Notes under the pieces: generated by a model
Seen by the model: only the letters and a program-made list of their open reading frames with translations
Databases searched by the model: none
What the model was told of the DNA's origin: nothing
Made by a program: the position numbers and the translations under genes
From: Chitinophagaceae bacterium LGM1
GTDB lineage: Bacteria > Bacteroidota > Bacteroidia > Chitinophagales > Chitinophagaceae
Assembly (NCBI GenBank): GCA_018604165.1
Contig: CP075895.1
Location: 3,033,001-3,097,000, forward strand
Reading direction: 5' to 3'
Length of the DNA stretch: 64,000 nucleotides
Shown here: positions 2,478 through 11,964 of the stretch, in pieces
How the letters are laid out: each line of letters opens with the position of its first letter
Position numbering within the stretch: position 1 is the stretch's first letter

Positions 2478-2490
2478 GTGGAGAATAACG
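2478..2490. repeat. Left island attachment repeat (att core)
   Basis: GTGGAGAATAACG is identical to 11655-11667, where it forms the last 12 bases of tRNA-Ala plus one flanking base. Here it continues into TTCTCC, making the palindrome GGAGAA-TAACG-TTCTCC (2480-2496), a typical tyrosine-recombinase core: two inverted arms around a 5-base crossover. The two copies bound the AT-rich island, and the integrase starts 115 bases inside. Confidence 0.85.
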
Positions 2491-2562
2491 TTCTCCAATA
2501 AAAAATAATGATATTGATTATCAATACTTTATAACAAAATATAGATAATATCGGAACAAAAT

Positions 2563-2598
2563 GTTTTACTCGTGTTTTACTCTTAGTTTTGAGTAAAA
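2563..2598 (+). promoter_or_regulatory. Paired GTTTTACTC repeats upstream of integrase
   Basis: GTTTTACTC occurs at 2563-2571 and 2574-2582, one helical turn apart, and TTTTACTC (2575-2582) pairs with GAGTAAAA (2591-2598) as an 8-bp inverted repeat just before the integrase start. A similar pair, GTTTTACAC, lies near the right end at 11575-11596. The placement inside both att cores suits integrase arm-type binding sites. It may also autoregulate int. The role is inferred. Confidence 0.5.
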
Positions 2599-2605
2599 AT
2601 TCCAG

Positions 2606-4105
2606 ATGGGAAAAACAACCTTTACACCAGTATTAAAAAAGAAATATTCAACAGATAAGACTGGTATTATTAATATCAGAATTACTCAAAATAGAATATC
2701 TAAATACGAGTCATTAGGAATTTCACTCAAGGAACGATTTTGGAACAATAACGGGAAAGATATTGAAAGTAAATTAAGAGTTAATCGTGATTTTGATGAA
2801 AATCACCGAATGTCAATAATAAGTACTGTAAATCTTTCCATTGATAAACTAAAGAAAACACACAAAATTTCTGGTGATATTAATATCACAATTAGTAACA
2901 AAAGAAATTCATTCCTTTCTCAATTAGATGGATTTATTAAATTCTTAGAATCAAGAATGAAAATAGGTAGTTCCAAAAAATATAAGACTACACGTTTTCA
3001 TATACTCAAATACTTGAAAAGTATAGATAAGTCCGATTTGACATTTACGGAATTAACTAGTTTGTTTATTGAAAATTTTGAAACATATTTATTAAACCAA
3101 AAAATAAGTTTTAACACAACCAAAAACTATATCAATTGTATAAAAAGGGTTTACACAAAATGTGTTGGTAATGGAGAATACACACCTCACTTAGACCCTT
3201 TTGTAAATTTTAAGAATAAAAAAGTAATAGTCAAGAAAGTGTTCTTAGAAAAGAAACACGTTGAAAAAATATTACGAACTAGATTTGACAAAAGTGATAG
3301 TTTGTTCAATGTCAGAAACTATTTTCTATTTCAAGTATTTGGTCAAGGGTTAAGAGTTAGTGATTTGTTGACATTGAGATTTAGTAATGTTATCGAGGGG
3401 AATATCACATTCAATCAGTATAAGACGAAGAAAGAACACACAGTATTCCTTACTCCAGTATTAATGTGGATACTTAAAGATTATATCAACTCGAAGGAGG
3501 TGACTAAAATTATTAGTGTAAAGTATAAGTATAAATTCAATGGTATAGATTATTCAGAAAAGTTTGAAGACATACTTACTAGATACAATCTAATTGTAGG
3601 TAGATACATCGAAACTCCACTGAATAAAAAGGATGAGAGAAATAGAACTTTTACTGATATAGAAAATTTGAAGAAAATAGTAGAACAAGTATTAAGTAAA
3701 GTTTCTGATTCACTAAAAATTGAACTACACAAATACTCTAAAGAACATAGGAATGAATTTATTTTCCCAATTGTTAATCCACAGATTTTTGATAATGTTG
3801 TCTTTAATGAGAATACTAATCTAGATAAAACTCAATACAATCATTTACAATCGAGAACTACTGTTTATAATAAACAACTTAAAGTCTTACAGAAAAAGTG
3901 TGATATTGACATAACACTTACATCTCATATTCCTAGACACACTTACACTAATTTAATGATACAAAATGACGGTGATGTGTACGAGATATCCAAAAGTTTA
4001 GGTCACCAGGGAATTAATACGACCGATAAGTATATCAGTATATTAAAAGGAAAAATTGAAAATAGTAACAAAGATCTTGGAGAAACTTTCACAAAGTTTT
4101 TATAA
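2606..4105 (+). CDS. Tyrosine recombinase, island integrase
   Basis: This 499-residue site-specific recombinase has the Bacteroidota architecture: an arm-DNA-binding domain (about 7-60), a SAM-like core-binding domain (about 100-200) and a catalytic domain. The catalytic set is visible as R250 (GQGLRVSDLL), K273/K275, H441-x-x-R444 (SHIPRHTYTN), H467 (SLGHQG) and Y476 (DKYISIL). A long insertion of roughly 130 residues separates the Lys strand from the HxxR block, which makes it longer than most of this family. It sits next to the left att repeat and reads into the island, so it is the likely enzyme for insertion in the tRNA gene. Its coding sequence overlaps the convergent gene at 4100 by six bases. 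Confidence 0.92.
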   Translation: MGKTTFTPVLKKKYSTDKTGIINIRITQNRISKYESLGISLKERFWNNNGKDIESKLRVNRDFDENHRMSIISTVNLSIDKLKKTHKISGDINITISNKRNSFLSQLDGFIKFLESRMKIGSSKKYKTTRFHILKYLKSIDKSDLTFTELTSLFIENFETYLLNQKISFNTTKNYINCIKRVYTKCVGNGEYTPHLDPFVNFKNKKVIVKKVFLEKKHVEKILRTRFDKSDSLFNVRNYFLFQVFGQGLRVSDLLTLRFSNVIEGNITFNQYKTKKEHTVFLTPVLMWILKDYINSKEVTKIISVKYKYKFNGIDYSEKFEDILTRYNLIVGRYIETPLNKKDERNRTFTDIENLKKIVEQVLSKVSDSLKIELHKYSKEHRNEFIFPIVNPQIFDNVVFNENTNLDKTQYNHLQSRTTVYNKQLKVLQKKCDIDITLTSHIPRHTYTNLMIQNDGDVYEISKSLGHQGINTTDKYISILKGKIENSNKDLGETFTKFL

Positions 4106-4309
4106 CCCTGTGAAGTTTATCACATCATCCAATCGATTTTCAAGGTTGATTAAATCACCTAAATACCCCCAGTTATAGGAGTTTTTATCGAAGTATTGTC
4201 TATGTTTTCTTAATACTCTCTTTAATCGTTGTAATTTCTTTTCAACGTCTTTACTTTTTTGATAATACCTGTTCTGTAATTCTAAATTCATCTTATTGTA
4301 TTTTATCAT
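4100..4309 (-). CDS. Small basic protein coupled to second recombinase
   Basis: The 69-residue Lys/Arg-rich product has a probable helix or coiled coil at about 10-40. Its ATG overlaps the stop of the short recombinase (TAATG at 4311-4307), so translation is probably coupled and the two proteins may act together. An internal ATG at codon 7 is an alternative start. I recognise no family. By position it could be a recombinase accessory or excision factor, but nothing in the sequence proves that. Confidence 0.55.
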   Translation of the reverse strand: MIKYNKMNLELQNRYYQKSKDVEKKLQRLKRVLRKHRQYFDKNSYNWGYLGDLINLENRLDDVINFTGL

Positions 4310-4899
4310 TATAAACTTAAACTATCGTAAACATCGTGTATCTCTTGTTCTCTAATTCCTAGATACCTTTTCGTTATTGATTGGGAACTATGTCCAAACA
4401 GTTCCATTAATAAAACCATTGATTTATCAGAATAGTTGTTTAGTTCAACTACTCTTCTACCAAGTGTCTTTCTGAAAGTATGGGTTGAAATATTACCTCC
4501 CACCTTAACCTTATATCTTTTGAATAACTCTTTCAACTTCACATTTACATAGGATTTATCTATCGGTTTAGTCCCGTACTTGTTGATGAATATGAACTCA
4601 GAATAGTCTTTTAAACCCTGTTTTTTGACTATCCTTTCGATGATCTCCCTCAAGTCAGGGTTTACCTTTATACTTCGTTGTTTTTTCGTCTTTTTCTCTT
4701 GTATTGAGATTACTTCCCGGTGTAGTATATCCTGATACCTGAGATTGAGTAAGTCTGATATTCTGAGACCAGTGAATACCCCAATAGATATTAAAAGACA
4801 AAATTTGTATTCTTCGTCCTTTTCCAATCTTGTAATGAATGAAACAAAGTCATTCCACTCCATGTAACTAGTTGTCGTTTTTTGTCCTTCCAAACTCAT
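4309..4899 (-). CDS. Catalytic-domain-only tyrosine recombinase
   Basis: The 196-residue protein is essentially just a phage-integrase catalytic domain. All active-site residues are present: R46 (TGLRISDLL), K69/K70, H140-x-x-R143 (STHTFRKTLG), H170 (LFGHSSQSIT) and Y179 (RYLGI). No core-binding or arm-binding domain precedes it, yet it has its own ATG and an intact frame, so it is unlikely to be a decayed fragment. It faces the long integrase convergently, with the small basic gene between. It may serve excision, dimer resolution or an invertible site. Which reaction it performs is unknown. Confidence 0.85.
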   Translation of the reverse strand: MSLEGQKTTTSYMEWNDFVSFITRLEKDEEYKFCLLISIGVFTGLRISDLLNLRYQDILHREVISIQEKKTKKQRSIKVNPDLREIIERIVKKQGLKDYSEFIFINKYGTKPIDKSYVNVKLKELFKRYKVKVGGNISTHTFRKTLGRRVVELNNYSDKSMVLLMELFGHSSQSITKRYLGIREQEIHDVYDSLSL

Positions 4900-4960
4900 A
4901 ACAAATCCCTGTTTTACTTACTTTTTCATTTAGACGACCAACCTAAGGAGGATTATTGAC

Positions 4961-5098
4961 ATAACCTATACTTTTATCAAAAATTGTATAAAAGTATAAG
5001 TTATGATATATTTGACAATAAAATATTTACTCGAAACCCTTACCCATTAAGGTTTCCAGTAAAAAACTTACACTTTTATCAGAAGTATAAGGTTTTTT
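4961..5098. promoter_or_regulatory. Two related palindromes in a divergent promoter region
   Basis: The 233-base gap between the short recombinase (minus) and the gene at 5133 (plus) holds two imperfect palindromes with the same half-site. The first has arms 4961-4977 and 4988-5004 (ATAACCTATACTTTTAT against ATAAAAGTATAAGTTAT, 16 of 17 matching). The second spans 5061-5098 around ACACTTTTATCAGAAGTATA. Both look like operators of a dimeric regulator. The second ends in a T-run and could instead be a terminator or attenuator. The second is also related to 10806-10824. Confidence 0.5.
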
Positions 5099-5132
5099 GA
5101 AAATTTCCAGATATTTATAATAAAGAAACTAT

Positions 5133-5348
5133 ATGATTAATAAAATAACTCTTGAAGAAATCTCAGAAATGAGTTCTCCTCTTTCCTCTCTAGTCGTTAT
5201 TGGAGAGTATTTCAATTTGATTGAACAAAGAATAAAAGATGGTTACCATGTCCCGGTTTATAATACAAAACTGGATAATGTTCCTCTCAACGTATTAGAG
5301 TCTATTGAAGAATTTAATGAGTTTAAATCAAAATACATTGTTGATTAG
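5133..5348 (+). CDS. Hypothetical 71-residue acidic protein
   Basis: The short product is acidic, with no membrane segment and no cysteine pairs. It is rich in Glu/Asn/Leu and is probably helical. It is one of only three plus-strand genes in the island and lies just after the repeated palindromes, so it may be controlled by them. I recognise no family. The ATG follows an AT-rich leader without a strong ribosome-binding site, which is common in Bacteroidota. The base composition matches the island. Confidence 0.5.
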   Translation: MINKITLEEISEMSSPLSSLVVIGEYFNLIEQRIKDGYHVPVYNTKLDNVPLNVLESIEEFNEFKSKYIVD

Positions 5349-5437
5349 TTAGAATAAGTTGAGGGGTTCAGGAAATATTTTTCATAAGGTCGGTTGATTG
5401 GATAATAATCATCTAAGTTTGACATATATCAGATATC

Positions 5438-5728
5438 ATGGATTATTCAGTCAACCGAATCGAAATTCGACCAGTAGGTAAAAATATAAGTAAAAATACT
5501 GACTACAAGTTAAGGTTTTTTAAAAGTGGGAAAATACCACCTACTATTAATCAACAGTTGACAATTCGTATAACACATAAGGATTTCCTTCCAGACCCTT
5601 TTCCAAATCAACGTAAGGAGATAATAATAAAATTGATTGATAATGTTTCAGGTGAGGAACTTGTACGGAAGTTTTCTGAACCACCAGAGTTTGGTTCGAA
5701 CAGAACTATTGTGATAAAACTACCTTAA
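5438..5728 (+). CDS. Hypothetical 96-residue island protein
   Basis: The product looks like a small beta-rich soluble protein with alternating hydrophobic residues (RIEIRPVG, LTIRITHKDF, EIIIKLIDN, RTIVIKLP) and no signal peptide or transmembrane helix. It lies 89 bases after the gene at 5133 on the same strand and converges on the restriction-modification gene, ending 31 bases before its stop. No family is recognised. A link to the restriction enzyme is possible only by position. Confidence 0.5.
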   Translation: MDYSVNRIEIRPVGKNISKNTDYKLRFFKSGKIPPTINQQLTIRITHKDFLPDPFPNQRKEIIIKLIDNVSGEELVRKFSEPPEFGSNRTIVIKLP

Positions 5729-5759
5729 GTTGAACCACAAGGAAGTCTAATCAAACAAG

Positions 5760-8700
5760 TTACACGTTAGTTGTGTAACTAAAATCCTTTTCAATTAATT
5801 CAATGTCACTGGAGTTTAAAGAATAAATTTTATAAACTTCAGAGTTGAGTTTACTATACAACTCATCTACTTCGAGATTGTTTTTTGTTCTTTCTATTAA
5901 GATATCAACTATTTCTACAACTCTTTTTACTAACTCATCATTCGGTTTAACAATAGGTGTTTCTAATAACGGGTCACTATCTATTTGATAATTCTCACCT
6001 TGTAATTTTCCTTTCTTTTTAAAATAGTAATTTATCACACTCGAGTTCAATAAACCAGTAAGATATTTTAAGTTTATTCGTTTGGATTTTATGACGTTGA
6101 TGGACATCATTACATATGTTGATTCCTCAGTATAAACAAATGTTGGGTATTTACACTTTCTAACTGATAGTATTTTTGGAGTTGGTTTGAAGTACTCTTC
6201 GTCTCTAGACCAATGTAAATGATAGAACTCTAGTCGTCCGTTCTGATTCTCTCTCCTTTGAAACATAATCTCTTTATATTTTTCTAGGTGACTTATCAAA
6301 GTTGGACAGTCGGAATTGTAGTTTGATTTATTGATGTAAATAATATCACGACTACTTTTACCTAAAAAAAATCTGTCCATATCAGATGGTTCATAGACTG
6401 GTTTTAGGTATTTCAATTCAGATTCATTTAGAGTAGGGAAGTGATTTTTCTCAACGACAAATACACCATCCCCAACTTTTATATTTCGTTCCTTTATCTT
6501 GATGTCACTAAAGTTTTTGATGTTACGAGAGTTGACGTAATCAGGATTTGGTACTATACCCTGAACTATTTCATTTTTTTGAAGTTGAAAATTAGAATTT
6601 GAGATTATTTTATTTAAAATAGAGTTATCCTCATCTTTATTAAAGGTGAAATTTTTGTTTAGATATGTATCCCTCTTAAATATTGGATTAAAAATTTCAA
6701 TACCGTCTGATTGATATCCGTTTAAAACATCATCTAATTGATTTGACCCTTTTAACGATTTCGTAATTCTTCTAAAATCAATAGTATAGTTATCGGTTTC
6801 TGTATCTTTCTGAAAAACCATGATCATAGTTTGAATTGATACATCTTCAAATACCATTACGGAACCAAAATCAATTAGTTTAACAATCTTTGAGGAATTT
6901 GTAATTCTGTTTCTGAAATTCTTTCCTCCCTGATTAGTTGTCCAATTATTAGTTGAAATAAATGACAAATACCCTTTGGGTTTTAATAATTCGATACCTA
7001 AACAACCGAAAAGATACCATATATCCATTTTCCCCTGATAACAGGATAAATCTCGTAATCCGTCAAATACCTTTTTATCATCGTTCTCCTTTATATAAGG
7101 TGGGTTACCTATGATGATATCAAACCCCTCGAAATCACCATTCTCATCTAGTACTTCTGAAAATTCATACCTCCACTCAAATGACGATTTATATTTAATA
7201 TTTTCTTCGATTTCCTTAATTCTGTTTTCAATCTTTTTAAGTTCGTTTTCCTTTGATTTAAGTTTATCTAAATCTTCTGGTTTAATTGTTTCCCCAAACT
7301 TTTCTAGATTTTTCAACCCAATCTTAATGTTAGAAATCTGACCTTTAACTTTTGAGTACTGTTTAATTGTATCCTTTTCAATAGTATCTTTAATGTTACT
7401 TCGAATCTCAAGTATAGAGGGTTCAATTTGTGTTTTTTTAATTGTCTTGTCGTTAGTGTTTTTATAATTGTAGACAAGTTCTTTATATTTTTTTATGGAG
7501 TATTTATCCTGTTTAAAAACATCTTTTAAGTCTTCGGTAATTGAATATCTAGATAGAAGAGAATTACCAATCTTTATGTTAATATCAATATTAGGTAATG
7601 TTTCAAGTTCAATGTAATTGGAATCATCGGTATAAAAAGAACTTTTAAGTAATTCAATCCATAACCTCAACCTACAAATCTTCACACTATTACTATTGAT
7701 ATCAACTCCAAATAAACAATTTTCGATTATTTTCTTTTTTTCATTAAAGATCGTTTTTTGAATATTTTGAATGTGTGAGTTTGGTCTTCCATTTTCATTA
7801 ATAAAATATTTTACTTGATCTCCAAATTCATCAAGAATAATAAGTTCGTCATTATTGATATTTATGTTAATAGTATTCAGTCTTTTCCCATTCTCATCAA
7901 TTAAAATACCTAATTCAGATTTTAATTTAATTATTGAATTTAATGTAGATACAAGAAAGTGACCACTTCCAACTGATGGATCACAGATTTTCAAGTTGTC
8001 AATAATCTTATTGGATTCTTCAATAGTAGTGACCTTATCGATAATGTTATACAAGTCATTAACACTAGTACAACTAATGTTATACTTATCATTGAAAATA
8101 TCTAATACTCTTCTTTTTATTGTGTCTTCCGAAAGATAGGTAGTAATAAAAGATGGAGTGAATACACTTCCGTCTTTGTAACCATTAATTTTTTCGAAAA
8201 TGAGTCCTAATACTGAAGAATTTATTAAGTATTTTTTTTGTAAATCATCGTCTATGTTAGAACCGAAGTTGTAAGAATCTAAAAATCTAAGTAAATACTC
8301 TAATGGTTTTAGTTTGACATCTTTCAGTCTTTTACCTGTTGTCTTGTCTTTCAAAATTGTTTTAGAAAAAACATCTACACTCAATGAGTTGTCCAAATTT
8401 GATATTCGTAACAACTTTCGTTCTATTTCTGTAGTCTCAAATAATGAACTATTTAAGTAAGGGATAAAATCAAACTTACTAAACGTATCTCTTCGATTTT
8501 GGGGTTTTTCTGACAGAACCTCAAAAAATAAATTATTCAATACATCGTAATCGTAAATTAAATCTGAGGTAAGAAACTTTTTATTCCTTTTATCACTAAA
8601 ACTTATTAATTGGGATTCTAATAATTTGAGAAATAAAATACGGTTTATCCAAGTAACAACTAATTCGAGAGATAAGTTGAATATTCTTTCTGTATTTGTC

Positions 8701-9620
8701 TCTCCAAAAGTGTATAAGTCAGTAAGATTAATATTTGATATTAACCCTTCAAGTTCAATTTTTCTAATCGTATTTTCAATTAAAGAACCTTGTTGAGGGT
8801 TGGGAGATCTATCAATTACCAGTTTCCCATCTTTTTTTTGTTCTTCAAGTCCTAATATATATAGGAGTTCATAGTAAAAACCTTTGTTTAAAACATTAGA
8901 ATCATTACTATAATCTTCCTTTAAAATATTAATTGGAGAAAAGTATCTTATAAAATCCCCCAATTCTTCTTTTCTTATTTTTCTTAAATCAAAATACTCA
9001 AACTTAATGTCCCCTTCATTATTGGAAATGTATTTTGAAATATACTCGTAAAATACTTCTGTTTTTGATGAGTCAGTTTTTTTATAATACCATTGATTGA
9101 AAAAGTTATATACTTCCTTTTTATCGTAGAACTTATTTTTTAATTCATTAGAATCAAACAAAAACCATTCATAACCATCTGTAATGATACCCTTAGTGAC
9201 AAATGGGTTTTTGTTTACTACCCTTTCATATAGATAGTACAATATTAATTCATGAAGGGACTTTCTATTAAGGTCATCTTTTGTAACTAAATCTTTTTTG
9301 TTGTCAGTCTTCTTTAATTCAATAATAACATTAGTATTAGAATCGGTCTTTTCATTTTCTTTAATTACCAAATCACTTTCAATAAGACCTTTGTATGAAT
9401 TAGAGTTAATATAATTTTTCGAAAAAAATGTTTCTAGAAACTTCGTAATAAGTATTTTGATATGTCCTTCGGTTTGTCCGGAATTATTAGTTTCATCTAG
9501 GGACGTTAAAAAACTATTGATTGATTTCTCAACAACTATACTAAAATCATTAGTAACTACGATATTCTTAAGACTACTATCAATCTTAGATCTATAGGAC
9601 TTGAGATTGGGTTGTAACAT
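5760..9620 (-). CDS. Single-chain type IIG-like restriction-modification enzyme
   Basis: The 1286-residue protein combines the parts of an Eco57I-type enzyme. A putative PD-(D/E)xK nuclease lies near the N-terminus (D83 in ESDLVI; E101 and K103 in VIIELKK). A helical linker follows, then an N6-adenine methyltransferase with motif I DPSVGSGHF (about 547-555), a GVDINS block (about 640) and motif IV NPPY (about 838-841). The C-terminal 350 residues look like a TaqI-type target-recognition domain ending near YQIDSDPLLETPIVKP. A charged, probably coiled-coil insert (about 715-815) interrupts the methyltransferase. Such enzymes methylate one strand of self DNA and cut unmodified invaders. BREX PglX is the main alternative, but no BREX partners are present and the ExK motif argues for a nuclease. 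Confidence 0.85.
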   Translation of the reverse strand: MLQPNLKSYRSKIDSSLKNIVVTNDFSIVVEKSINSFLTSLDETNNSGQTEGHIKILITKFLETFFSKNYINSNSYKGLIESDLVIKENEKTDSNTNVIIELKKTDNKKDLVTKDDLNRKSLHELILYYLYERVVNKNPFVTKGIITDGYEWFLFDSNELKNKFYDKKEVYNFFNQWYYKKTDSSKTEVFYEYISKYISNNEGDIKFEYFDLRKIRKEELGDFIRYFSPINILKEDYSNDSNVLNKGFYYELLYILGLEEQKKDGKLVIDRSPNPQQGSLIENTIRKIELEGLISNINLTDLYTFGETNTERIFNLSLELVVTWINRILFLKLLESQLISFSDKRNKKFLTSDLIYDYDVLNNLFFEVLSEKPQNRRDTFSKFDFIPYLNSSLFETTEIERKLLRISNLDNSLSVDVFSKTILKDKTTGKRLKDVKLKPLEYLLRFLDSYNFGSNIDDDLQKKYLINSSVLGLIFEKINGYKDGSVFTPSFITTYLSEDTIKRRVLDIFNDKYNISCTSVNDLYNIIDKVTTIEESNKIIDNLKICDPSVGSGHFLVSTLNSIIKLKSELGILIDENGKRLNTINININNDELIILDEFGDQVKYFINENGRPNSHIQNIQKTIFNEKKKIIENCLFGVDINSNSVKICRLRLWIELLKSSFYTDDSNYIELETLPNIDINIKIGNSLLSRYSITEDLKDVFKQDKYSIKKYKELVYNYKNTNDKTIKKTQIEPSILEIRSNIKDTIEKDTIKQYSKVKGQISNIKIGLKNLEKFGETIKPEDLDKLKSKENELKKIENRIKEIEENIKYKSSFEWRYEFSEVLDENGDFEGFDIIIGNPPYIKENDDKKVFDGLRDLSCYQGKMDIWYLFGCLGIELLKPKGYLSFISTNNWTTNQGGKNFRNRITNSSKIVKLIDFGSVMVFEDVSIQTMIMVFQKDTETDNYTIDFRRITKSLKGSNQLDDVLNGYQSDGIEIFNPIFKRDTYLNKNFTFNKDEDNSILNKIISNSNFQLQKNEIVQGIVPNPDYVNSRNIKNFSDIKIKERNIKVGDGVFVVEKNHFPTLNESELKYLKPVYEPSDMDRFFLGKSSRDIIYINKSNYNSDCPTLISHLEKYKEIMFQRRENQNGRLEFYHLHWSRDEEYFKPTPKILSVRKCKYPTFVYTEESTYVMMSINVIKSKRINLKYLTGLLNSSVINYYFKKKGKLQGENYQIDSDPLLETPIVKPNDELVKRVVEIVDILIERTKNNLEVDELYSKLNSEVYKIYSLNSSDIELIEKDFSYTTNV

Positions 9621-9674
9621 GATACGTTAATTTCTATTTTGTTATTAAGTTGATGTAGTAGAGAAAACGGGAGT

Positions 9675-9839
9675 TTAATTACTAGGTCTTCTTATAAATC
9701 CCATGTAATCCCTCAGTTTCTCCAAAATATAACAATCTCCAATTTTGGGAGAGAAGACTTTTTCTGAAATAAAGTCTTTGGTGTTGTAACCTACAAAAAA
9801 GAAAATTATTCCTGTTAGTGTGTAATATAGAGGTCTCAT
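9675..9839 (-). CDS. Possible 54-residue membrane peptide
   Basis: The 327-base gap between the restriction gene and the zinc-ribbon gene holds one open frame that I translated by hand from ATG 9839 to TAA 9675. It begins MRPLYYTLTGIIFFFVGY, a hydrophobic helix of about 14 residues after a short charged start, followed by a basic tail rich in Lys, Arg and Asp. It could be a single-pass membrane peptide. It reads in the same direction as its neighbours and starts 61 bases after the terminator hairpin. There is no homology evidence. Confidence 0.4.
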   Translation of the reverse strand: MRPLYYTLTGIIFFFVGYNTKDFISEKVFSPKIGDCYILEKLRDYMGFIRRPSN

Positions 9840-9899
9840 GTATTGGTTTTGGTATGGAAAATTACCTATTTTATGGATAGATAGGTAGAATACATAAAT

Positions 9900-9924
9900 A
9901 AAAAAACACGGGTATTCCCCGTGT
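9900..9924 (-). terminator. Rho-independent terminator of the zinc-ribbon/HUH operon
   Basis: ACACGGG (9906-9912) and CCCGTGT (9918-9924) form a strong stem with a short loop, followed on the minus strand by a run of T from 9905 downwards. It lies 24 bases beyond the stop of the zinc-ribbon gene and separates that operon from the restriction gene. Confidence 0.85.
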
Positions 9925-9947
9925 CAAGTTTAAATTTGATTCTTATG

Positions 9948-10172
9948 TTAGAGTTTACTCCAAGAATGGAATGATTTGTTTGAACACCCATTAACATTTG
10001 GTGTAGAATTACTATTAATTTTTACCCCACAATTCTTACATAAGTACGTTTTATCACCCACTTGACCAAGATTTGACCAAGAATGAAAAGAAGACTTAGG
10101 ACATCCGTTGACATTCGGTGTAGAATTACTTTGGTGTGTAGTTCCACAGTGTTTACAACAATAATTATTCAT
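9948..10172 (-). CDS. Tandem zinc-ribbon protein, 74 residues
   Basis: The whole protein is two copies of a roughly 35-residue unit. Each has C-x2-C-G near its start (CCKHCGTT and LCKNCGVK), then SNSTPNVNGC and FHSW. Each unit therefore supplies three Cys plus a His, enough to hold one zinc. Units of this pattern occur in short proteins of Bacteroidota mobile elements; their function is not known to me. The start is 31 bases downstream of the HUH-motif gene and the operon terminator follows, so the two are probably co-transcribed. A DNA-binding or partner-binding role is inference. Confidence 0.7.
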   Translation of the reverse strand: MNNYCCKHCGTTHQSNSTPNVNGCPKSSFHSWSNLGQVGDKTYLCKNCGVKINSNSTPNVNGCSNKSFHSWSKL

Positions 10173-10203
10173 GATATTTGATTTAGGTTAACAATTCTTA
10201 AAG

Positions 10204-10731
10204 TTAGATAACGTTTTTCATTATTAATTCACTTGAGAACCTGTCCTTTATCTGTTTAGTGTGATAAAGAATGAAGTTATCTTCCAGTTTATCAATCTTC
10301 TTGTAGTCAAACTTTGTAAGTGATTTCCTTTTCGTAGGAATGGAAGTTAATTCTTCAAATAGATTGTAGATAAGGTTAACAAAAGACACGTTATATCGAC
10401 TGGATATAAAGAGATGAAAATGGAAATTCAATTCAAAATCTTGTGTAAAAATATCTTGTGTATTTTGTGACAAATTAAACTCTTTAGACGTTTCAAAGAA
10501 ACAGTAGTATTGAAATAATTTATTCTCCATCCCCTTCTTATAATTATAACTAAGATAGTGTTGTGTATACCTTTTCAGAGATCTGTTAATACATTTCTTT
10601 AATTCAGGTAGGGTCATAGGTTTATGTAATAATGATTGTTGAATAACTACATAATGTAGATTGTTTATAGGTAAAGATTTTACTTCATTTAGTATTTGTA
10701 TTTGATGTGGTTTTAATTCATAAGTATTCAT
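10204..10731 (-). CDS. Candidate compact HUH endonuclease / replication initiator
   Basis: This 175-residue protein shows, in the right order, three motifs resembling rolling-circle Rep proteins. Motif I is like CFFETS (77-82). Motif II is HFHLFIS with the HUH pair H104 and H106 on a beta-like strand. Motif III is Y156-H-T-K159 (YxxK), the expected nicking Tyr and Lys. The order and the helical segment after motif II fit a minimal HUH fold without a helicase. Such enzymes nick single-stranded DNA for replication, mobilisation or transposition. The spacing between motifs II and III (about 50 residues) is plausible. I cannot name a family, so this stays a motif-based call. A small hairpin (10828-10844) lies upstream of the gene. 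Confidence 0.55.
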   Translation of the reverse strand: MNTYELKPHQIQILNEVKSLPINNLHYVVIQQSLLHKPMTLPELKKCINRSLKRYTQHYLSYNYKKGMENKLFQYYCFFETSKEFNLSQNTQDIFTQDFELNFHFHLFISSRYNVSFVNLIYNLFEELTSIPTKRKSLTKFDYKKIDKLEDNFILYHTKQIKDRFSSELIMKNVI

Positions 10732-10805
10732 TACGTGGATTATATTATTAGGTATAGGACAATCAATACAATAAAATAATTATTGTTCAAACACCTTGAT
10801 TTTTT

Positions 10806-10844
10806 ACTTTTTACAGAAGTATAACTGAATCCTGTTATAGGATT
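10806..10844. promoter_or_regulatory. Operator-like element plus hairpin upstream of HUH gene
   Basis: CAGAAGTATAA at 10814-10824 repeats 5080-5090 exactly, and the preceding bases (TTACTTTTTA) resemble TTACACTTTTAT there. Next to it, AATCCT-GTTAT-AGGATT (10828-10844) is a perfect 6-bp hairpin about 100 bases ahead of the HUH gene. The first part may be a shared operator. The hairpin may be a promoter-linked structure or a nick site. Both roles are inferred. Nothing else is visible in 10732-10860. Confidence 0.4.
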
Positions 10845-10860
10845 TGAACCGATATTTCCG

Positions 10861-11007
10861 TTAATTCTTTTTAAGTCTTTCCAATTTTATCCGTAATTCC
10901 AAAATTTGTATTTCCAACCACAATTTCCGTTTATCATTATAATCCCTCTCTTGATAGTATTTCTGTCGTTTATCTGTTAGTTTCTTATTCAAACATTTAA
11001 TTTTCAT
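10861..11007 (-). CDS. Small basic coiled-coil protein, 48 residues
   Basis: A frame translated by hand from ATG 11007 to TAA 10861 begins MKIKCLNKKLTDKRQKYYQE and ends LELRIKLERLKKN. It is strongly basic, with a heptad-like Leu/Ile pattern at about 30-46. Its start lies 11 bases inside the end of the 96-residue gene, so it fits as the third member of an overlapping mini-operon (11471 to 10861). The overlap and the matching strand are the support. No homology is known. Confidence 0.5.
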   Translation of the reverse strand: MKIKCLNKKLTDKRQKYYQERDYNDKRKLWLEIQILELRIKLERLKKN

Positions 11008-11287
11008 GAAGTCCATTTCTATCTGATTTCATTTTATCAACTTCTTTCTTTGTTCTGTCTATATCTTTTACCAACCTATTCATTACCAAGAATGTAATAA
11101 ACTCAATTACAGAGTTTTCTTTGAAAAGGAATTGGTTTTTATAATGGACATACTCACTCTCTGAAAAGTTGTATTTCTTCATCTCTCTTATCAATTGAGA
11201 CTTAGACATACCAAGGGTTTCTCTCAACATATTTGTATCGTATAGTATTTCCTTAGTATTTTGGTTTATATATTTTATCATATTCAT
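10997..11287 (-). CDS. Hypothetical 96-residue island protein, possible DNA binder
   Basis: The product has a central segment, RETLGMSKSQLIREMKKY (about 22-39), that reads like a helix-turn-helix or helix-loop-helix, then an aromatic strand YVHYKNQFLF and a C-terminal charged helix rich in Lys, Asp and Glu. It overlaps the gene upstream by 35 bases and the 48-residue gene downstream by 11, so all three are probably one transcript. M3 (11281) is an alternative start. A regulatory or replication-accessory role is possible but unproven. Confidence 0.55.
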   Translation of the reverse strand: MNMIKYINQNTKEILYDTNMLRETLGMSKSQLIREMKKYNFSESEYVHYKNQFLFKENSVIEFITFLVMNRLVKDIDRTKKEVDKMKSDRNGLHEN

Positions 11288-11471
11288 CCATTATTTCGTT
11301 AAACTCTCTCATTAATTCTTCTATACCAAGTGGTTTACGTTGGAGAGTAATAGTAACCTCATCATTTCCATTTGTGGTATTTACCTCATCATTTACCTCT
11401 TTAGTTTTTTCATTCAATTTGTGTTTCAAAAACATATTGAATGATGTTGATACATACTTCATAGTGTTCAA
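11253..11471 (-). CDS. Hypothetical 72-residue protein, first gene of right-end operon
   Basis: The short acidic product has a low-complexity Asn/Thr/Glu middle and a C-terminal helix (GIEELMREFNEIMDEYDKIY). It has no signal peptide or cysteine motif. It is the promoter-proximal gene of the minus-strand run that leads to the HUH gene and starts about 185 bases inside the right att repeat. No family is recognised. Confidence 0.5.
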   Translation of the reverse strand: MNTMKYVSTSFNMFLKHKLNEKTKEVNDEVNTTNGNDEVTITLQRKPLGIEELMREFNEIMDEYDKIYKPKY

Positions 11472-11574
11472 TAATTTTTTGTCCGAAACGTATCGGTAGT
11501 ATTATATATCAGTTGTAATAAAAGGTTTTAAGAAAGAGTGGATTTTTTATAAAACTTAAAACGAATTCAAAAAC

Positions 11575-11596
11575 GTTTTACACAATTGTTTTACAC
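11575..11596. promoter_or_regulatory. Paired GTTTTACAC repeats at right island end
   Basis: GTTTTACAC occurs at 11575-11583 and 11588-11596, 13 bases apart, 59 bases from the right att core. It differs by one base from the GTTTTACTC pair found 73 bases from the left core. Matching repeats at similar distances inside both cores fit arm-type integrase sites. Confidence 0.5.
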
Positions 11597-11606
11597 CTAA
11601 AACTAA

Positions 11607-11649
11607 AAAGTGTCTGAAAGTATTGATAAATCAACATTTCAGACACTTT
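11607..11649 (-). terminator. Island-borne hairpin next to the tRNA 3' end
   Basis: AAAGTGTCTGAAA (11607-11619) and TTTCAGACACTTT (11637-11649) form a perfect 13-bp stem with a 17-base loop. On the minus strand it begins six bases after the mature tRNA end and runs into TTTTTAGTTTT. It therefore serves as a terminator for tRNA-Ala, and it lies inside the island, where it replaces the chromosomal hairpin at 2439-2477 that integration moved 9 kb away. Confidence 0.75.
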
Positions 11650-11655
11650 GTTAAG

Positions 11656-11729
<74 letters not shown>

Positions 11730-11805
11730 ATGCGGGCTGCAAATATAGCGTCTTGAAACTATTTGGCAAATTTCTTGTTAACTTTAGAAACAACTCTTTT
11801 GCATT

Positions 11806-11964
11806 ATGTGGCGGCAGATACTTACATATTTCTACTTGCGCAAAAAAGACCCCAATGCGCCGTCTAATATAAACATCAAATTCATGCATGGCATGAACAG
11901 GATTTCACTGTTCATCTTCCTCATTGGCATTATTGTTATGATAGTACGCTTGATACGCCGCTAA
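11806..11964 (+). CDS. DUF6728-like small membrane protein
   Basis: A 52-residue frame runs from ATG 11806 to TAA 11964. It begins MWRQILTYFYLRKKDPNAP, then a HGMNRIS block, and ends in one transmembrane helix (ISLFIFLIGIIVMIVRLI) with a basic tail. The YLRKKDPNAP and HGMNRIS blocks match, from memory, the small Bacteroidota family DUF6728, whose function is unknown. It is probably an inner-membrane peptide. It lies between the tRNA (opposite strand) and the SDR gene. Confidence 0.7.
   Translation: MWRQILTYFYLRKKDPNAPSNINIKFMHGMNRISLFIFLIGIIVMIVRLIRR

Follow-up and report, generated by a model that had tools for sequence, protein, structure and literature searches.

The 64,000-nucleotide stretch of Chitinophagaceae bacterium LGM1 analysed here, referred to below as the window (contig CP075895.1, positions 3,033,001 to 3,097,000 of the forward strand), contains a real and well-bounded integrative mobile element of about 9.2 kb, inserted at the 3' end of a tRNA-Ala(GGC) gene. 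It is probably a member of a Bacteroidota family of integrative elements that carry a replication module built around an HUH-type protein and follow the cycle proposed below. The element has defined ends and an empty site in relatives, and its genes recur in other Bacteroidota with conserved residues, a covarying hairpin and other conserved DNA sites, the module being joined there to different integrases; module, covarying hairpin and integrase swapping set it above a routine island. The wider claim is that these elements form an undescribed Bacteroidota family with a constant replication module (an orphan HUH family, a hairpin origin and three small partners), swapped integrases from two unrelated superfamilies, four kinds of target and restriction cargo, one branch of which keeps a tyrosine resolvase with a two-part site; we regard this as evenly balanced between right and wrong. 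The HUH-module family is apparently unnamed, and literature titles and abstract openings, a coverage that mostly excludes subscription journals, gave no account of it.

Many defence genes sit in small islands whose mode of movement is unknown. The family is a compact carrier of restriction enzymes in which the ends, an integrase, a candidate origin and a putative initiator are mapped, as is a second recombinase with conserved sites in three of its elements. It would also add an HUH family that has no relatives in the plasmid and phage searches made here, and nicking of a defined hairpin would give a direct bench test for the replication and spread of islands of this kind among Bacteroidota.

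Ends of the element and its insertion site

The 13-bp direct repeat GTGGAGAATAACG bounds the element with zero mismatches between its two copies (Table 1). A count over the full genome (3,322,193 bp) gives just these two copies and none on the reverse strand; a control pattern gave 0 matches. The repeat is also the sole direct repeat of at least 9 bp between positions 2440-2620 and 11450-11740. The exact count over the genome is the better test of the core because the initial chance estimate tolerated two mismatches (shuffle mean 1.21 matches, with at least two in 34 of 100 shuffles). The right copy is the 3' end of the tRNA gene, on which Rfam concurs, and GC content is 0.26-0.32 in windows of the island interior, 0.42-0.45 in the left flank and 0.37-0.46 in the right flank out to 20 kb. 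Direct repeats with one copy in a tRNA 3' end, a terminal integrase and an empty site in relatives together mark a site-specific integrative element. A sequence-only reading that preceded this analysis had described an island with defined ends in tRNA-Ala(GGC), bounded by this repeat, differing in base use and having one core copy as the tRNA end, and each of these points agrees with the exact match at both coordinates, the lower GC inside, the two genomic copies, the Rfam call and the absence of the island from the locus in relatives.

The core and the first bases of the element form a palindrome with 7-bp arms and a 5-bp spacer, a candidate strand-exchange core; 7-5-7 palindromes are of the kind bound by tyrosine recombinases. 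The pairs of GTTTTAC repeats near the two ends are taken as candidate integrase arm sites; the same 7-mer is found once more in mid-element (4911). Arm sites were also put to a shuffle test with TGTTTTAC, which demanded two copies within 200 bp of each end. The Flavobacterium element described below has two copies at each end, and another member, G1250, passes an equivalent test for AGGACAA (0 of 300 shuffles). The putative terminator hairpin behind the tRNA is present in a decayed copy of the element (G1047) too, and by eye the stretches behind the tRNA in L058 and L064 look similar.

All 15 same-genus genomes, our own included, have lpxB, and the 14 relatives all have a tRNA-Ala(GGC) with the core (11 exact, 3 with one mismatch). 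Near lpxB in these 14 no island protein matched at E ≤1e-4; two loci (G001 and G011) are on short contigs, and that of G001 is not judgeable because the contig ends at the core. The 175-amino acid (aa) HUH protein is absent from all 14, and among 59 genomes searched (our own and 58 relatives, including the 14 of the genus) only our own matched. G006, whose lpxB is the most similar, has the core in the context TATTG-core-GAGTCG, which matches the flanks on the two sides of the island; its tRNA has the orientation seen in the window and an empty site, but an open reading frame (ORF) of 359 aa, presumably Rieske-type, lies between lpxB and the tRNA. That ORF, in the nearest same-orientation relative, contradicts the prediction that removing the island restores a bare convergent lpxB/tRNA pair, while the site itself is empty as predicted. 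The comparison with relatives that had been suggested as a check came out in favour of the island, neither of the two outcomes named as refuting it (the same genes without repeats in close relatives, or an empty site without the core) being seen. The idea that lpxB is directly beside tRNA-Ala in relatives proved wrong: most of the 14 have the tRNA in the other orientation or at a distance from lpxB. We note that tRNA-Ala and a small divergent gene (window 11806-11964) shift in orientation and position relative to lpxB among the same-genus genomes (L020-L030). We also note that in two species some of the 3' sequence of tRNA-Ala is duplicated 339-352 bp from the intact gene (L023 10331-10744 in G012, L024 11496-11922 in G007); the 82-86-aa ORF between the tRNA and its duplicate is one that we take to be GIY-YIG-like, and the arrangement may be a miniature homing unit using this same end of the tRNA.

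The probable HUH module and its family

Family scans against Pfam, NCBIfam and PHROGs covered 10 ORFs of the window island. Read from the tRNA, the island genes are o72, o96b (a winged-helix protein), o48 (a putative coiled coil), the HUH gene, the zinc-ribbon gene, the type IIG gene, two ORFs on the opposite strand, intB, o69 and, again on the opposite strand, intA. The first four form the module shared by the family. In the HUH protein H104, H106, Y156 and K159 are invariant in all seven sequences compared, the window included, at identities down to 20%, so that the H-hydrophobic-H plus catalytic Tyr pattern of the HUH superfamily is present; the middle residue is Phe in six of the seven and a polar Thr in G1028. 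The predicted structure, modelled with six sequences (pLDDT 81.9, pTM 0.82), has the order strand-helix-strand-strand(HFHLF)-helix-strand-helix(Y) when short helices are omitted, which fits the HUH fold. Compared with viral models it gives one match at E ≤1e-3 (E 7.9e-4, unnamed), and among the 50 viral rows listed three are named, all of them replication proteins (microvirus, archaeal rod-shaped virus and ORF2/G2P), the other 47 being unnamed. Against the PDB, RepB of pMV158 and IS200/IS605-type transposases appear among many other folds at E 0.12-0.32. The likeness to microvirus and other HUH initiators, RepB and IS200/IS605 TnpA thus lies in a weak match of predicted fold, the H-x-H motif and a Tyr followed three residues on by a Lys, whereas no sequence similarity appears at the profile thresholds used. 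The HUH assignment is likely, not proven; the sequence-only guess to this effect gains most from the H-x-H/Y-x-x-K motifs, invariant in all seven sequences, and less from the predicted fold.

Between o48 and the HUH gene, eight members have a hairpin with the loop CTGTAAA or a variant of it (CTAAAAA, CTGAAAA). Over six elements 29 of 30 stem cells are paired and four of the five pairs have changed on both sides, giving a covariation score of 0.867 against 0.318 +/- 0.106 in shuffles (none of 500 as high); sliding the partner by one to three columns lowers the score to 0.200 or less. Two of the six are close Flavobacterium relatives, and the count omits Mucilaginibacter and G1091, which have variant loops (pairing in G1091 was read by eye), and the hairpin-less G1028. 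Stems of five Watson-Crick pairs with a 7-nt loop occur at 34 of 10,133 background positions, and a perfect hairpin with the CTGTAAA loop occurs once in the 64-kb window. Downstream toward the HUH gene lies the box TGATTGTCCTAT, exact in five elements (two of them close relatives) and with one mismatch in G1091; no box was seen in L049, where the stretch upstream of the HUH gene is cut off. The second hairpin, beside the box, is individually weak in the fold scan (p 0.01 to 0.29). A conserved loop on a covarying stem beside an HUH gene has the look of a nick site, and we consider the CTGTAAA hairpin a candidate nick or origin site.

Single-sequence scans with the HUH protein or the integrase gave nothing usable in genome_contigs, viral contigs, plasmids or phages. 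A single-sequence search of 395 genomes of the phylum yielded a first convincing relative, G515 (Mucilaginibacter), and the resulting two-row alignment opened the family; weak hits of that search (E 1.8e-4 to 0.01, in seven of nine matching genomes) were set aside. One weak candidate, in G527, was rejected, the match falling inside another protein, a recombinase that is presumably XerC-like. The two-row alignment found five loci in genome_contigs, one of them the G515 contig, and matched 5 of 395 genomes in the class sample (our own included); HUH searches around G1047 and G515 matched 4 of 64 family genomes and 1 of 110, the latter being G515 itself, and a six-row alignment matched 2 of 395 when the phylum sample was searched again. 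The HUH family was not found in viral contigs, phages or plasmids. With so few matches across these samples, the family is rare yet spread over several bacterial families. IntA gave one plasmid match (25% identity) and, among 394 family genomes with the best three candidates per genome scored, one relative at E ≤1e-50, in G358.

The gene order from the tRNA is the same in G1250, whose element is at tRNA-Arg(CCT) with an exact tRNA copy of at least 20 nt beyond intA: o72, o96b, o48, HUH, three N6/N4-type methyltransferases and other ORFs, intB, small ORFs and opposite-strand intA. G1028 has intA, intB, an ORF, a C5 methyltransferase, HUH, o96b and o72 with a 10-bp repeat, in a gene that we take to be comM. 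In a Flavobacterium metagenome-assembled genome (L045) 18-bp repeats enclose an integrase, o72, o96b, HUH and additional ORFs, and the element lies immediately before a presumably Mrp-like gene (mrp). A Bacteroidetes metagenome-assembled genome (L048) has a 569-aa large serine recombinase, o72, o96b, HUH, a methyltransferase, a type II restriction endonuclease (E 1.3e-67) and a 204-aa serine recombinase. The Mucilaginibacter element is cut by the contig end, so that any other recombinase would be off the contig; its last ORF (211 aa) is serine-recombinase-like, with 28% identity to the 204-aa protein of L048, and we take the target of both elements to be comM. Cut or decayed copies are L047, L049 (HUH, zinc-ribbon and an HsdM piece), G358, and G1091 and G1288, both at tRNA-Arg(CCT); G880 has a short HUH end only. 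In two other loci a relative of the 74-aa zinc-ribbon protein is encoded behind the HUH gene, or behind what is left of it. G1047, from another bacterial family, has HUH (with two stops), o96b and o72 between lpxB and tRNA-Ala(GGC), so insertion at the tRNA-Ala beside lpxB seems to have happened in two bacterial families, which for G1047 is judged by position.

The HUH protein of the window is 43-51% identical to those of five members and 27% to that of G1028, and the four tyrosine integrases (IntA) are 22-30% identical; one HUH family is thus joined to integrases of two superfamilies, tyrosine and large serine. The target sites are tRNA-Ala, tRNA-Arg, comM and upstream of mrp, and restriction or DNA-methyltransferase genes are present in five members (window, G1250, G1028, L048 and L049). 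The remark in the sequence-only reading that the cargo fits no element familiar to it holds in part: the gene set recurs in other Bacteroidota and is therefore a family. Three smaller likenesses were seen. ORFs of 69-71 aa in two members (L043 14755-14970 and L064 11545-11754) are similar by eye; an 86-aa ORF (L043 12252-12509 and L048 10917-11177; 42% identical) is common to both comM elements with serine recombinases, located ahead of the module in one element and after it in the second; and in G358 an ORF that is presumably Fic-like (L041 250-1289) overlaps the zinc-ribbon gene remnant of the decayed member.

Proposed cycle and competing interpretations

From the sequence we infer a cycle of excision, nicking, replication, resolution and transfer with a role for every protein. 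IntA would recombine the two 13-bp cores and release a circle; the tRNA would stay whole after insertion because the element supplies its 3' end and terminator. The HUH protein would nick the covarying hairpin that precedes its gene, in the loop, and so start rolling-circle replication, which the winged-helix, o72 and coiled-coil proteins of the module would assist. Multimers would be resolved by IntB, working on the pair of inverted repeats next to intB. A copy of the element would then reintegrate at tRNA-Ala. The type IIG enzyme would be cargo, protecting the host while also binding it to the element.

The role of IntB needs separate comment. The window protein is 76% and 73% identical to IntB of two other members, and the range among the three elements that have it (window, G1250 and G1028) is 73-86%. 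Upstream of intB all three have two inverted repeats based on AACTTATACTT that differ in spacer length, short in one and long in the other; the short-spacer repeat is imperfect in the window and G1250. Paired inverted-repeat sites of two spacings resemble resolution sites, and we infer that IntB and its sites are a multimer resolution system, which would suit rolling-circle replication; a small serine recombinase may take its part in the serine-recombinase elements. We think it doubtful that IntB is instead a DNA invertase, or a regulator with the inverted repeats as its operators. A weak match to an NCBIfam model of tyrosine-type DNA invertases (E 2.9e-5) and the position of the repeats where the intB promoter would be speak for such a role, but the paired sites of two spacings are conserved in all three elements, and plasmids carry IntB relatives in 573 records, of which 351 are enterococcal; identity is 33-37% across the 20 rows listed. 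Relatives are found on 125 phage records as well.

Several observations weigh against a family of HUH-replicated elements with this cycle. The 175-aa protein matches nothing in Pfam, PADLOC, NCBIfam or PHROGs, and the family was therefore found by iteration; it has no plasmid or phage match, and its relatives give weak unrelated rows (MinE, best E 0.0077; PHROGs, best E 0.053). Its model matches nothing in the PDB at E ≤0.001 (best E 0.03), and the top rows are beta-alanine synthase, which is not an HUH protein. The case for a replication role is therefore made by the motifs, the fold and the hairpin next to the gene. Two of the five covariation measures fall within the shuffles (73 of 500 as high for both-side changes, 150 of 500 for further pair types), G1028 showed no CTGTAAA hairpin, and the box was not found at up to two mismatches before the HUH genes of L057, L064, L065 and L066. 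The hairpin could also act in mRNA, as a control element, rather than as an origin. The window fails the TGTTTTAC arm-site test, with two copies at the left end and one exact 8-mer at the right, because the second right-end copy begins with C. Elsewhere in the family, the Flavobacterium member has no intB match, a second core copy was not found at the decayed G1047 locus, and the scanned ORFs of L045 include no restriction or methyltransferase gene (three cargo ORFs lack a Pfam restriction hit, one of them also has none in PADLOC, and a 125-aa ORF was outside the scan).

Among published systems the nearest known kind is the integrative mobilizable element (IME) with a rolling-circle-type relaxase. 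Among 144 streptococcal IMEs, 118 have relaxases related to rolling-circle initiators, 35 of these 118 lack a coupling protein, the distinction between Rep and relaxase is termed probably not relevant, and a type II restriction-modification system is listed as cargo of one IME (PMC5704250). Like the island, those of the MobT/Rep_2/PHA00330 types have their own integrase, leave the target gene functional and encode an HUH or rolling-circle-type protein without mating genes (PMC5704250); the island differs in being from Bacteroidota, in an HUH family without a Pfam hit, in its winged-helix/o72/coiled-coil module and, in three elements, in a second recombinase with its own sites. It is possible, though we think it fairly unlikely, that the HUH protein is a relaxase nicking an oriT and the circle is mobilised by a conjugative helper, with replication subordinate to transfer or included in it. 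Relaxases akin to rolling-circle initiators are frequent in Firmicutes IMEs (PMC5704250), the hairpin beside a conserved box fits an oriT equally, and o96b has a weak fold match to the pCW3 relaxosome accessory protein (E 0.35). On the other side, no coupling protein or mating gene was seen among the listed ORFs of the window island or of four further members (part of the ORFs of these five were scanned against families), the conjugation ATPase family TIGR03783, the one mating family sought in the host genome, has no match there, and the four Bacteroidetes IMEs named in PMC5704250 use MobP relaxases. The 10 scanned ORFs include no mating-pair genes, as in an IME, and no canonical Mob-family relaxase; with that relaxase lacking and mobilisation hypothetical, we do not grant the island IME membership on its sequence. 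NBU1, NBU2, Tn4555 and Tn4399 share with it their Bacteroidota hosts and, in NBU1 and Tn4555, a tyrosine integrase, with further element genes needed for the excision of these two as another likeness, but they encode MobP relaxases and are mobilised by integrative conjugative elements with MPFB (PMC5704250), whereas the island has no relaxase-family hit.

Two other interpretations appear improbable to us, and to a similar degree. The island could be a phage satellite, which would leave the chromosome and replicate when a phage infects the cell and be packaged by a helper phage, and for which its small size, tRNA site, own replication module and defence cargo would be fitting, as would one weak fold row of o96b, an E. 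coli phage-inducible island protein (6hn7, E 0.9); yet no packaging or structural PHROG match was found in the 10 ORFs, three HUH scans of viral contigs were empty, and phages gave no HUH match. Or it could be an ordinary decayed genomic island in which shared genes are common passengers and nothing moves now. Remnants do exist elsewhere (G1047 with stops, G358 and G1288), but in the window the integrase, recombinase, HUH and type IIG genes have open frames that retain catalytic motifs, the two cores do not differ, and module order, compensatory hairpin changes and DNA sites are kept across bacterial families.

Two known groups with more than one tyrosine recombinase were considered and rejected on gene order. 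GInt islands share short direct repeats (10-11 nt in GInts) and variable cargo with the elements described here, but are built on a ginABCD operon with three integrases at one end, whereas the island has only two recombinases, convergent and on opposite strands, with the HUH module at the opposite end (PMC5385486). SE-6945 and SE-6283 also have an IntA and an IntB, and circles, proposed for the island, have been shown for them; their core, however, is four genes clustered at one end (intA-CDS2-intB-CDS4) with 19-bp inverted ends, unlike the convergent IntA/IntB and direct-repeat ends of the island, and the 196-aa IntB lacks the very long N-terminus of SE IntB (PMC9345347).

Remaining genes and features of the element

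The named cargo of the sequence-only reading (tyrosine integrase, second recombinase, type IIG enzyme, zinc ribbon and HUH-motif protein) is all present. That inventory was correct as far as it went and missed the module beside the tRNA (10861-11471), the hairpin and the inverted-repeat sites, as well as the fact that the second recombinase is the best conserved recombinase in the three elements having it.

Table 1. Genes and sites of the window element in order of position
Feature	Position	Strand	Description	Basis
Left core	2478..2490	+	core copy beyond integrase	repeat search, genome count
Palindrome	2479..2497	+	TGGAGAA-TAACG-TTCTCCA (7-bp arms, 5-bp spacer); core and first element bases; candidate strand-exchange core	sequence
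Left arm sites	2563..2580	+	two GTTTTAC repeats 11 bp apart (2563, 2574); candidate integrase arm sites
intA	2606..4105	+	tyrosine integrase, 499 aa; SAM-like and catalytic domains; R, HxxR, LGH, Y motifs
o69	4100..4309	-	69-aa ORF directly downstream of intB
intB	4309..4899	-	196-aa tyrosine recombinase, catalytic domain only; same R, HxxR, LGH, Y pattern
Site II	4963..5002	-	inverted repeat upstream of intB (AACTTATACTTTT...AAAAGTATAGGTT), conserved in three elements
Site I	5064..5094	-	inverted repeat upstream of intB, ~30 bp, short spacer, imperfect in window
71-aa ORF	5133..5348	+	no family
96-aa ORF	5438..5728	+	no family
Type IIG gene	5760..9620	-	restriction enzyme-methyltransferase, 1286 aa (DUF7149, DUF7814, Eco57I, TaqI_C)
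Zinc-ribbon gene	9948..10172	-	74-aa double zinc-ribbon-like protein, two CxxC...GC...H repeats
HUH gene	10204..10731	-	HUH-type protein, 175 aa (HFHLF at 104, YHTK at 156); proposed replication initiator/relaxase
Box	10754..10765	-	TGATTGTCCTAT, upstream of HUH gene
Second hairpin	10769..10785	-	CAATAA-TTATT-TTATTG, just 5' of box
Hairpin	10805..10821	-	TACTT-CTGTAAA-AAGTA; candidate nick/origin site	covariation across family
o48	10861..11007	-	48-aa ORF conserved between winged-helix and HUH genes; coiled coil	by eye
o96b	10997..11287	-	winged-helix protein, long C-terminal helix	model
o72	11253..11471	-	small protein overlapping o96b; relatives acidic in mid-protein, weakly conserved (17-26% identity)
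Right arm sites	11575..11594	+	two GTTTTAC repeats 13 bp apart (11575, 11588); candidate arm sites
Terminator	11609..11647	.	element-borne hairpin then T run on minus strand; putative tRNA terminator	by eye
Right core	11655..11667	+	core copy that is the tRNA 3' end	repeat search, genome count
tRNA-Ala(GGC)	11655..11729	-	intact	Rfam

The R, HxxR, LGH and Y residues of IntA and IntB are ones that we take to be tyrosine recombinase motifs. The small ORFs of the island have no usable match in the four profile collections. The o96b model, a winged helix with a long C-terminal helix, has a pLDDT of 88.4, and its weak PDB matches (E ≥0.33) include the partition protein of pSK1, the TorI and Pukovnik excisionases and a pCW3 relaxosome protein; no plasmid match was found, and the protein could be a partition, excision or initiation partner.

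The 1286-aa protein matches PADLOC REase_MTase_IIG over residues 32-1278 (E 1.8e-226) and retains ELK, DPxxGSG and NPPY motifs, of which we take the first to be nuclease-like and the second to be the S-adenosylmethionine motif. By its sequence it is a predicted type IIG enzyme, with a nuclease, an Eco57I-type methylase and a specificity domain fused in one chain. Used as a probe it matched 1 viral contig and 26 plasmid records, and the ten plasmid rows listed are of the Eco57I/TaqI_C type where annotated.

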